Under the pieces are notes generated by a model that was given only the letters and a program-made list of their open reading frames with translations, was not told the origin of the DNA and made no database searches. A DNA stretch of 64,000 nt, taken from NCBI RefSeq assembly GCF_000026045.1, contig NC_007426.1, forward strand, positions 2,108,001 to 2,172,000. The letters run 5' to 3'. The first letter of the stretch is position 1. Each line of letters opens with the position of its first letter. This document shows positions 36,521-40,081 of this stretch, in pieces. The position numbers were made by a program, and so were the translations under genes. The stretch comes from Natronomonas pharaonis DSM 2160. GTDB lineage: Archaea > Halobacteriota > Halobacteria > Halobacteriales > Haloarculaceae.

Positions 36521-36621
36521 CCGTTGTGGGGGACTTTCGACTCCGATACCGTTGTAGTTCCGGTTCGTTGCGGGTCGGCCGAACCTGTGGACTTTTCTAT
36601 CGCGAGACAAAAGAGAGGGCC

Positions 36622-37026
36622 ATGACGGACGAAGAAGAAGGCGAAAGCGGCGAGGAGAAATCGTTCCGAGAGCGAGTCGAAGAAATCCGCCAACAGCGCG
36701 CCGAGGAAGGCGACGGCGAGGGCGACGGCGAAGGCCTGAGCCGAGAAGAGAAAATGCAGGAGATGATGGGTGGCGGCGGCGGCCCCGGTGGCATGGGCGG
36801 TGGCGGCGGCATGGGCGGCAGCCCCTTCGCGCAGATGATGGGCGGCATGATGGGTGGCGGCGGCCCCGGTGCCGGCGCTGGCGGCCCCCCCGGAATGGGC
36901 GGCAGCCCCGAGGGAGAAGGCAGCGACAACGAAGAACTCGTCCGCGAAGTCCGCAAGGTTCGCGACGAACTCCACGACATCCGCCGTGAGATGGAGCGCG
37001 TCGCCGACGCCCTAGAAGAGCGGTAG
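36622..37026 (+). CDS. Met/Gly-rich low-complexity protein with coiled-coil ends
   Basis: A 134-aa protein in three parts: a charged helix (about 10-46), a tract of only Gly, Met and Pro with a few Ala/Ser/Gln (about 47-92, containing MMGG and GGMGG units), and a charged C-terminal helix with heptad character (about 97-134). No transmembrane or export signal. The GGM tract resembles the flexible tails of thermosome/GroEL subunits. The ATG at 36622 fits a GGGCCATG context. Function unknown; neighbours (ZIP divergent, Bat regulator downstream) do not explain it. Confidence 0.75.
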   Translation: MTDEEEGESGEEKSFRERVEEIRQQRAEEGDGEGDGEGLSREEKMQEMMGGGGGPGGMGGGGGMGGSPFAQMMGGMMGGGGPGAGAGGPPGMGGSPEGEGSDNEELVREVRKVRDELHDIRREMERVADALEER

Positions 37027-37081
37027 TGTTCTCGGAGCGGCGCAGCTTTTTGTAGCTCGGCGCGAAAGCGGGCGATGACCC

Positions 37082-38671
37082 GTGGCAGCGCCTACACTCG
37101 AACTGGACGATTCGATAGCGAGTCTGCTGGAGTCGGTCCCGGATGTCGTCTGTATCCTCGATACCGACGCCAGGCTCCGCTGGTGGAACGCACGCGTGCC
37201 CGAGGTAACCGGCTACGGCGTCGGCGCGCTCGCGGGGCGGGATGTCGGCGAACTGCTTGCCGCCGAATCCGGCGAGGTCGCCCGGCGAACGCTCGCCGAT
37301 ATTGACGACCATCCGCCCGACCACAGCCTCGAAGTCGACATTCTCACTCGGGACGGCAGACAGCTTCCGTACGAGTTCAACGGCGGCCTCGTCGATATCG
37401 GCGGCGAGCAGTTCGTCGTCACTATCGGCCGGAACATCACCGCCAGACGGAACCGGCAGGCCGCTATCCGGAGACAGCACGACGAGCTCGACACGCTCCA
37501 CCGAATCAGTCAGTCAGTCCATCGGGCGATTAGTGCCGTCGCCGAGGCGGCCGACAGAGCCGAAATCGAACAGGCCGTCTGCGACCGTCTCACCGCCTCC
37601 GAACTGTATCGAGCGGCGTGGGTCGGGCGCAGCGGCCCCGGAAAGACGATGACACCGACGGCAGGGACCGGCTCGGTTGACGGATTGTTGTCGGAGGTCG
37701 AACGGCTCAACGCGCTCGACTGGGAGGGTCCAGCGGTCGTGGCTGTCGAAACCGGCGAGATACAGGTCGTCCAGCAGATTGCAGAGTCTGATTTCCCCGA
37801 GGAAGTAAAGCAGGCAGCTGACGGACGTGACATCGCTTCCGGCGCATCGGTTCCCCTCGTGCACCAAGACTCCGTCGTCGGCGTGCTCTCTGTGTACTCG
37901 TCTCGACCGACCGCCTTTACCGACCGCGAGCAGGCCGCGCTGCGCCGGCTGGGCGAGGTTGTCGGCTTCGCGGTCACCGCGCTACGAATGCGACGGATGT
38001 TGCTGGCCGAGACGACGACGGAGCTTACCTTCCGTATCACGGGGCGGGAGGCGTTTCTGGCGACGATTTCCGCGAAAACCGGCGGCCGTTGTGAACACGA
38101 ATGGTCCGCAGCCGACGGCGACGGCGAGTACCGGCACTACTTCACGATGGCGGATGCCGACCCGGAGACCGTCGGCGAAATCGCTGCCGAGACGGACAAC
38201 GTCACCGAAGCCACCCGTGTCGGCAGCGACGGCGACGCCGACATCTTCGAGGTCCGCTTCCGTGAGTCACTCGTCGAGCAGTTCTTCGACGCCGGAGCCG
38301 TCCCGACGGCCGTTGTCTCTGAGGCGGGCGAAACGACCGTCGTCGCCGAACTCCCGAGCAGGGAGAACCCACGGCCGCTCGTTGATGCGGCCGACGACAT
38401 CTACGGCGCCGACCTCGTCTCGAAGCGTGAACTCGACCGGCCACCGCGGACGGAAGACGAGTTCCGAACCGCCGTCGACGAACGCCTCACCGACAGCCAG
38501 CGGACCGCACTCCGGCATGCCCACCTCAGGGGCTACTTCTCGTGGCCACGCGAGCAGACCGCCGAGGAAATCGCCGAGGCGATGGACCGCAGTTCAGCGA
38601 CGTTCCACTACCACATCCGTCGAGCACAGCGGGCGCTCGTCGAGGCGTACTTCCGTCATCTAGACACCTAG
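37082..38671 (+). CDS. PAS-GAF-HTH regulator of the bacterio-opsin activator type
   Basis: A 529-aa transcription regulator starting at GTG 37082. A PAS domain (about 12-125, with WWNARVPEVTGYG), a GAF domain (about 150-310), a Bat-type sensory/linker region (about 315-460) and a C-terminal HTH_10 (about 465-525, with ADDIYGADLVSKRE then RHAHLRGYFSWPREQTAEEIAE). These proteins respond to redox or light-linked signals. No opsin gene is in the window. It begins 55 bp after the Met/Gly-rich gene and could share its transcript. Confidence 0.88.
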   Translation: MAAPTLELDDSIASLLESVPDVVCILDTDARLRWWNARVPEVTGYGVGALAGRDVGELLAAESGEVARRTLADIDDHPPDHSLEVDILTRDGRQLPYEFNGGLVDIGGEQFVVTIGRNITARRNRQAAIRRQHDELDTLHRISQSVHRAISAVAEAADRAEIEQAVCDRLTASELYRAAWVGRSGPGKTMTPTAGTGSVDGLLSEVERLNALDWEGPAVVAVETGEIQVVQQIAESDFPEEVKQAADGRDIASGASVPLVHQDSVVGVLSVYSSRPTAFTDREQAALRRLGEVVGFAVTALRMRRMLLAETTTELTFRITGREAFLATISAKTGGRCEHEWSAADGDGEYRHYFTMADADPETVGEIAAETDNVTEATRVGSDGDADIFEVRFRESLVEQFFDAGAVPTAVVSEAGETTVVAELPSRENPRPLVDAADDIYGADLVSKRELDRPPRTEDEFRTAVDERLTDSQRTALRHAHLRGYFSWPREQTAEEIAEAMDRSSATFHYHIRRAQRALVEAYFRHLDT

Positions 38672-38708
38672 AGGGACGTTTCATACCCCTCCGCTCCAGA
38701 AAGACAAG

Positions 38709-38929
38709 CGAAGGCCTTGCGATGCGCTGCCGCCCGGCCGGGGACTCCCCGGTCAGCAGGGCCTTCGTGCCGACGGCGCCTCGCGTGGCGTGGGGGCCAT
38801 CCGTCGCCGACCGGCTCGCAGCACGGGGTTGGGGATGCACCTCGTTTCGTTTCTCCCGCCGCCGAACGATGGCGGCCGGGCGTATTTACAGAAATACAAG
38901 GAGAATGCCACGGGGCTTGACCCCGAGGC
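38709..38929. other. Intergenic cascade of hairpins (candidate structured RNA or IS relic)
   Basis: Between two convergent genes, consecutive stems are: CGAAGGCC/GGCCTTCG (38709-38767) enclosing CTGC/GCAG and CCGGGG-ACT-CCCCGG (38738-38752); CGACGG/CCGTCG (38771-38806) enclosing CGCC/GGCG; GCCGCC/GGCGGC (38858-38876), extended by three pairs past a bulge; GTATTT-ACAG-AAATAC (38882-38897); and CGGGG/CCCCG (38911-38925). The last part resembles a TnpB right end. No coding frame fits well and no known structured RNA (SRP, RNase P) is recognised. Confidence 0.55.
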
Positions 38930-38937
38930 AGTTCACA
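38906..38937 (+). repeat. TnpB-type right-end-like sequence
   Basis: A CGGGG/CCCCG hairpin (38911-38925) flanked by GCC/GGC and ending in GAGGCAGTTCAC. The intact element at 11631 ends GAGGTAGTTCAC in the same orientation relative to its hairpin. The reverse complement also matches the left edge of the three-way element at 19081. No tnpB reading frame precedes it. Confidence 0.5.
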
Positions 38938-40081
38938 GGTAGCCAGCGTCGACGAGGCGCTCAACACCGGTCTTGAGCCGCTCTTCGCTGGCCGCATAGG
39001 AGAGTCGCGCGTAGCCGGGCGTCCCGAAGGCGCTGCCCGGAACTGTCGCCACGTGGGCGTCCTCGAGCGCGCCCTCACACCACGCTTGGTCGTCGTCGTC
39101 GACCGGCAGCATCATGTAGAACGCGCCGTCCGGGAAGGGAACCTCCTTGCCGTGGTCGGCAAACAGGTCGATAAGCATGTCGCGCCGGGCCTCGAAGGCG
39201 TCCCGCATCTCGTCGACGGCGTCGTCGGTGTTGCGGAGCGCCTCGACGCCGGCGTGCTGGACGAAGTTGGCCGCACTCGAAACCGAGTGGGAGTGCAGCT
39301 TGCCGGCCTGTTCGACGAGCGGTTCGGGCGCTGCGAGATAGCCGAGCCGCCAGCCGGTCATCGAATAGGCCTTCGAGAAGCCGTTTATCGTCACCGTGCG
39401 GTCGGCCATCCCCTCGAGGCTGCCGAGCGAGGTTTGCTCGGTATCGTAGGTGATGGCGTCGTAAATCTCGTCGGAGATGACGGTGATGTCGTGGTCGACC
39501 GCGAGGTCGCGAACGCCTTCGAGAGCGGCATCGGAGAAGACAGCCCCCGAGGGGTTCGACGGCGAGTTGATAACGAGCAGTTCGGTCTCGTCGGAGACGG
39601 TTGCGGCGAGGTCCTCAAGCGCCGGTTCGAGCTGGAACGACGACCCCGAGAGGTCGACACGCGAGAGGTCACCGCCGGCCATCTTCGCCATCGCCTCGTA
39701 GCTCACCCACGCGGGGTCGAGCAAAACGACCTCGTCGCCGTCCTCGACGAGCGCCTGGAACGTCTCATAGAGGGCCTGCTTGGCGCCGGGGGTGACGATA
39801 ACCTCGTCGGTCGAGTAGTCAAGCCCGTCGGCGTCGAGTTTGTCCGCGATGGCTTCCTTGAGTTTCGGGATGCCGTTCGACGGCGGATACCCGGTATGGC
39901 CGGCGTCGAGGGCATCTTTACCGGCCTCGACGATGTTCTCCGGCGTCGGGAAGTCGGGTTCGCCGACCGACAGGTCGACGACATCGACACCGTCGGCCTC
40001 CAGTTCCGATGCGAGGTTGCTGATAGCGAGCGTCGCGCTCGGTTCGACCCGCTCGAGGCGGGCTGTGAAATCCATTGTCAT
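38933..40081 (-). CDS. Class I/II aminotransferase, aspartate aminotransferase type
   Basis: A 382-aa PLP enzyme. The pyridoxal lysine is in NGFSKAYSMTGWRLGY (near 235), with SVGEPDFPTP near 40, the NSPSNPSGAV loop near 170 and the substrate Arg in ARLSYAAS near 358. It most likely exchanges amino groups between aspartate or similar acids and 2-oxoglutarate; alanine or aromatic preference cannot be excluded. It begins by a 4-bp overlap with the upstream ribH stop, an unusual pairing. Confidence 0.92.
   Translation of the reverse strand: MTMDFTARLERVEPSATLAISNLASELEADGVDVVDLSVGEPDFPTPENIVEAGKDALDAGHTGYPPSNGIPKLKEAIADKLDADGLDYSTDEVIVTPGAKQALYETFQALVEDGDEVVLLDPAWVSYEAMAKMAGGDLSRVDLSGSSFQLEPALEDLAATVSDETELLVINSPSNPSGAVFSDAALEGVRDLAVDHDITVISDEIYDAITYDTEQTSLGSLEGMADRTVTINGFSKAYSMTGWRLGYLAAPEPLVEQAGKLHSHSVSSAANFVQHAGVEALRNTDDAVDEMRDAFEARRDMLIDLFADHGKEVPFPDGAFYMMLPVDDDDQAWCEGALEDAHVATVPGSAFGTPGYARLSYAASEERLKTGVERLVDAGYL

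Follow-up and report, generated by a model that had tools for sequence, protein, structure and literature searches.

An IS605/IS1341-type (TnpB) transposon has left a terminal-only remnant of 52 bp in the 3' part of the gap between two convergent genes of Natronomonas pharaonis, and the terminus of this element carries the stop codon of the adjacent aminotransferase gene. Such a solo hairpin was very probably left by insertion of an IS605-type element at TTTAC in the convergent spacer together with loss of its core. The window (the whole stretch of DNA that was analysed, 64,000 nucleotides) is located in the 2,595,221-bp chromosome, the second contig of the assembly being 130,989 bp. The flanking genes are convergent, as stated in the initial annotation; they are a BAT/HTH_10 regulator on the plus strand and a class I/II aminotransferase on the minus strand. 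The gap had further been described as filled by a hairpin cascade; stem-loops do exist, but they do not form one structure, and the aminotransferase stop lies inside the last hairpin element. Three independent and unrelated features are found side by side, namely a unique hairpin part (38672-38824), a 17-nt motif (38825-38841) and the transposon scar (38885-38936):

38672-38937 (266 bases): convergent gap studied, between the bat-type regulator (plus strand) and the aminotransferase (minus strand)
37082-38671, plus strand: bat-type regulator (PAS, GAF, BAT, HTH_10), stop TAG at 38669-38671
38708-38768, strand not assigned: strong hairpin GCGAAGGCC...GGCCTTCGT, present once in the genome and without conservation across the genus
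38825-38841, plus strand: linear motif GGGGTTGGGGATGCACC, conserved and associated with the bat gene
38885-38889, plus strand: target sequence TTTAC preceding the element, its complement GTAAA carrying the old TAA stop
38885-38936, plus strand: 52-bp terminal-only IS605/IS1341 (TnpB) remnant, counted with the target pentamer
38906-38930, plus strand: chimeric subterminal hairpin TGCC-A-CGGGG-CTTGA-CCCCG-A-GGCA, A.A mismatch at 38910/38926
38933-40081, minus strand: class I/II aminotransferase, stop TGA at 38933-38935 from the element terminus

No Pfam match was obtained for the reading frames of the gap, in agreement with the initial view that no frame reads as a protein, and peptides that might begin with a GTG or ATG inside the motif showed no conservation among the orthologous gaps when compared by eye.

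The resemblance of the final part of the gap to a TnpB element end, which had been noticed earlier, proved to be real in a search of the own genome and in a comparison of element ends, and explains the 3' part of the gap. When the genome was searched with the gap, three further places matched, with query positions 213-265 only (92-95% identity), and no TnpB gene was found near these solos in this genome. The genome harbors 37 matches to the TnpB domain (PF07282), and 38 tnpB genes have been reported for N. pharaonis (PMC3119063). Loci read for the hairpin core fell into three classes. Left ends read TTTACAG...GAATGCCACGGGGCTTGACCCCGTGGATGAAGCCGACA and right ends GGAAGCCTCGGGGCTTGACCCCGAGGCNGTTCAC; in the third class, the solos, left-end flank and left arm are joined without interruption to the right-end arm and the TTCAC terminus. 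A 15-nt core, CGGGGCTTGACCCCG, is common to the ends, and the pair beneath the GC core is A-T in left ends and T-A in right ends. The window solo carries A.A at this point, as do the sister solos L002, L003 and L004. This mismatch is explained by fusion within the shared 15-nt core, which would leave exactly such a pair; the solo is a fused left and right end.

Besides the window solo, six more were found in this genome. When the seven were aligned, the terminus TTCAC was identical throughout, and variants of TTTAC preceded all of them. A sequence profile built from these seven solos was covered at positions 1-44 by left ends, at 23-52 by right ends and at 1-52 by solos, both in this genome and in other Natronomonas. 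The profile also detected further solos in other Natronomonas genomes, and plasmid records from other haloarchaeal genera contain matches of equal extent.

Elements of the kind seen in the window scar have been published before. The passages on palindrome-associated transposable elements (PATEs) in the Haloquadratum walsbyi genome paper describe terminal-only forms of 52 bp, which arise by repeat-mediated deletion between near-terminal palindromes and may themselves be mobilised (PMC3119063). Core-deleted examples given there are HqIRS46 and ISHwa23, the latter derived from a TnpB transposon, and the IS605-type TnpB transposons of N. pharaonis are named ISNph5-ISNph22 (PMC3119063). The window element spans 52 bp including the target, its halves could be assigned against intact left and right ends, its termini (TTTACAG... 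and ...GTTCAC) are not inverted repeats, and the hairpin at 38906-38930 lies near the terminus. The target is not duplicated, as the orthologues in L059 and L061 have a single TTTAC (CTG TAAA), a comparison of empty sites between species with one genome per species. As far as those passages describe them, the Haloquadratum forms share with the solo the length, the fused ends, the single near-terminal palindrome, the lack of inverted terminal repeats and of coding capacity, and the IS605-type kin, whereas the host genus differs and the elements reported here are known from sequence, in one genome per species. With ISNph5-ISNph22 the solo has in common the left flank, the hairpin core CGGGGCTTGACCCCG and the TTCAC terminus, but it has no tnpB gene, no omegaRNA scaffold and one hairpin instead of two. 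Bacterial REP sequences are IS200/IS605-related palindromes as well; like the solos they are very short palindromes in spacers and kin to IS200/IS605 ends, but their sequence is another one, and copies are few here.

The scar would have originated from an IS605-type transposon, or a core-less form of it, that inserted behind a TTTAC overlapping the aminotransferase stop (complement GTAAA). The left and right subterminal hairpins are nearly identical, and recombination between them would have removed the core, either in place or before arrival, so that the 52-bp solo hairpin remained. Because the right terminus TTCAC (GTGAA on the other strand) mimics the target TTTAC, insertion over the TAA returned a TGA, by which, as the sequence shows, the stop was restored and the protein end kept. 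The solos L002 and L003 are identical and lie at unrelated sites, which may mean that solos are themselves mobile instead of arising at each site; two separate core losses would fit the identity as well.

The TGA of the aminotransferase gene (ORF end 38933) is the complement of the TCA within the TTCAC of the element. In element-free Natronomonas orthologues the same or nearly the same terminal residues are followed by TAA, TAG or TGA; several of these orthologues have CTG TAA, and those in L059 and L061 end with CTG TAAA, which is the intact TTTAC on the opposite strand. Exchange of TTTAC for TTCAC changes CTG TAA to CTG TGA. Since the TTCAC end supplies the TGA, the aminotransferase protein is unchanged, and the replacement of its stop was presumably neutral. 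At all four window-type solos the TGA supplied by the element closes the convergent gene, the sister loci being:

1389359-1389410 of G000:C1: sister solo L002, TGA closes a DUF6517 gene
655004-655055 of G000:C1: sister solo L003, TGA closes a TatC gene
766524-766575 of G000:C1: sister solo L004, TGA closes an AhpC/TSA gene

TatC at L003 retains the WVGR end of element-free orthologues. Random stop placement closed a frame of at least 150 open codons in 12.7% of draws, and such a frame is closed by 7 of the 17 recognised solos overall and by 4/4 of the window type. As this null is crude, using random positions and not target sites in spacers, it is likely rather than proven that solo termini close convergent genes beyond chance. 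A literature search on stop-codon insertions returned nothing relevant, and the stop-codon swap present here is not found in the Haloquadratum account as far as its PATE passages go (PMC3119063).

Termination of the two convergent genes by the hairpins, or by the T-rich stretch behind the motif, is conceivable for the remainder of the gap but rather unlikely. The convergent arrangement and the strong hairpin at 38708-38768, a 13-bp outer stem enclosing a perfect GC inner hairpin (z -3.5 versus dinucleotide shuffles for 38705-38774 alone), speak in favor of it. However, neither strand has a T run behind the strong hairpin, the hairpins are not conserved, and the one terminator-like match with a T-rich tail (38830-38854) is weak, lies on one strand only and stems from a scan that models bacterial terminators. 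A second copy of 38708-38768 was not found in a search of the own genome, and we infer that it is a lineage-specific palindrome and at most a local terminator. The bidirectional terminator considered in the initial annotation might apply to these lineage-specific hairpins.

That the gap is occupied over its full length by a conserved structured RNA or 3'-UTR element is far less probable. Stem-loops are present at 38708-38768, 38770-38814, 38855-38879 and 38903-38934, two hairpins are stable (38885-38936 alone: z -3.8 versus dinucleotide shuffles), and one 17-nt motif is conserved, but folding of the gap as a whole is not unusual and near that of shuffles. On the plus strand a z of -1.75 was obtained, with 9/200 shuffles folding equally well, and on the minus strand a z of -0.5; the best windows of the gap rank 34, 87 and 90 of 1065 in a 120-nt fold scan of the 64-kb window. 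The GTATTT/AAATAC hairpin is composed of three flank bases joined to sequence of the element, and none of the other solos has it. With gathering as well as relaxed thresholds, the sole hit of the gap in Rfam was a microRNA match attributable to chance. Since the spacer is unalignable in ten congeneric loci except for the 17-nt linear motif, the hairpins of 38708-38814 show no conservation that would support a structured RNA. The initial proposal of an uncharacterised structured RNA is thus not supported for the gap as a whole: ten orthologous gaps that cannot be aligned beyond the motif give no conservation of sequence or structure with covarying pairs.

A functional orphan omegaRNA, i.e. a guide without its own TnpB that is used in trans by the TnpB proteins of the cell, can practically be dismissed: right-end arm and terminus are of the TnpB-element type and the genome encodes the TnpB domains mentioned above, but of a right end no more than roughly the final 20 nt remain, gap positions 1-204 match no TnpB right end in the own genome, the stem has a mismatch, and the sequence that would serve as guide is the end of the neighbouring aminotransferase gene. 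The suggested guide-RNA relic is a transposon relic indeed, but upstream of the hairpin there is no match to the scaffold side of TnpB right ends of this genome, and the hairpin is a chimera of left and right ends whose upstream half is left-end sequence and not omegaRNA scaffold. A working guide RNA was rejected on this anatomy. A literature search on orphan TnpB guides yielded nothing relevant.

Insertion and core loss leave the conserved motif of the same gap unexplained. GGGGTTGGGGATGCACC is conserved in ten Natronomonas bat/aminotransferase gaps. The motif core GGGGATGCA is exact in 8/10 spacers and has one mismatch in 2/10, a count that overstates independence because L060, L065 and L075 are close relatives, but the remaining lineages among the ten are unalignable around the motif; in 1000 shuffles no 9-mer was common to more than 4/10 spacers. 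In most spacers the motif lies 109-166 nt behind the bat stop (217 in L063), and the spacers without bat (L061, L066, L067, L068) are also without the motif, as read from their sequences. The motif is probably a site of older origin that is under selection and tied to the bat gene. In the four Natronomonas loci without bat, a gene for a Met/Gly-rich small protein directly adjoins the aminotransferase gene and resembles the window ORF 36526-37026 (region 36526-38671).

An almost identical sequence is found in the spacer that separates the aconitase gene from rimI in most Natronomonas genomes, within a longer conserved element, GAAARCGGGGTGGGGGGTGGGGATGCACCCAAACGGGTGCA; GGGGATGCAC is the motif sequence of the bat/aminotransferase and acn/rimI spacers:

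L077 1490-1560 (G000:C1 about 202,990-203,060), minus strand: acn-rimI element, also in L089, L097, L111, L119, L128 and L131

The element of the acn-rimI spacer is highly conserved (GAAARCGGGGTGGGGGGTGGGGATGCACCC-loop-GGGTGCA, often then CATGAATCTTCTGG after about 45 nt). It is located at the same position in other genera of the family (at least four genera). In a class-wide search of 391 genomes, the exact hairpin pattern with a fixed stem was found in 13, all of this family, while a reversed control pattern gave no match; the acn-rimI element had no match in Rfam. Tentatively, GGGGTTGGGGATGCACC and the acn-rimI element (G-rich tract, TGCACCC-loop-GGGTGCA) might represent a shared, undescribed regulatory site, with one protein binding both, or an sRNA. 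If the sRNA version were true, the G-rich stretch of the RNA from one locus would pair with the aminotransferase mRNA at its C-rich 3' end.

The gap is explained by a transposon remnant of a known type, beside which lie spacer hairpins without conservation, and the motif, as the remaining item, merits attention of its own. The case illustrates the decay of TnpB transposons to 52-bp scars that lie inconspicuously at the ends of genes, and the replacement of TAA by TGA would offer a simple and testable explanation for the tolerance of such scars at 3' ends of genes.
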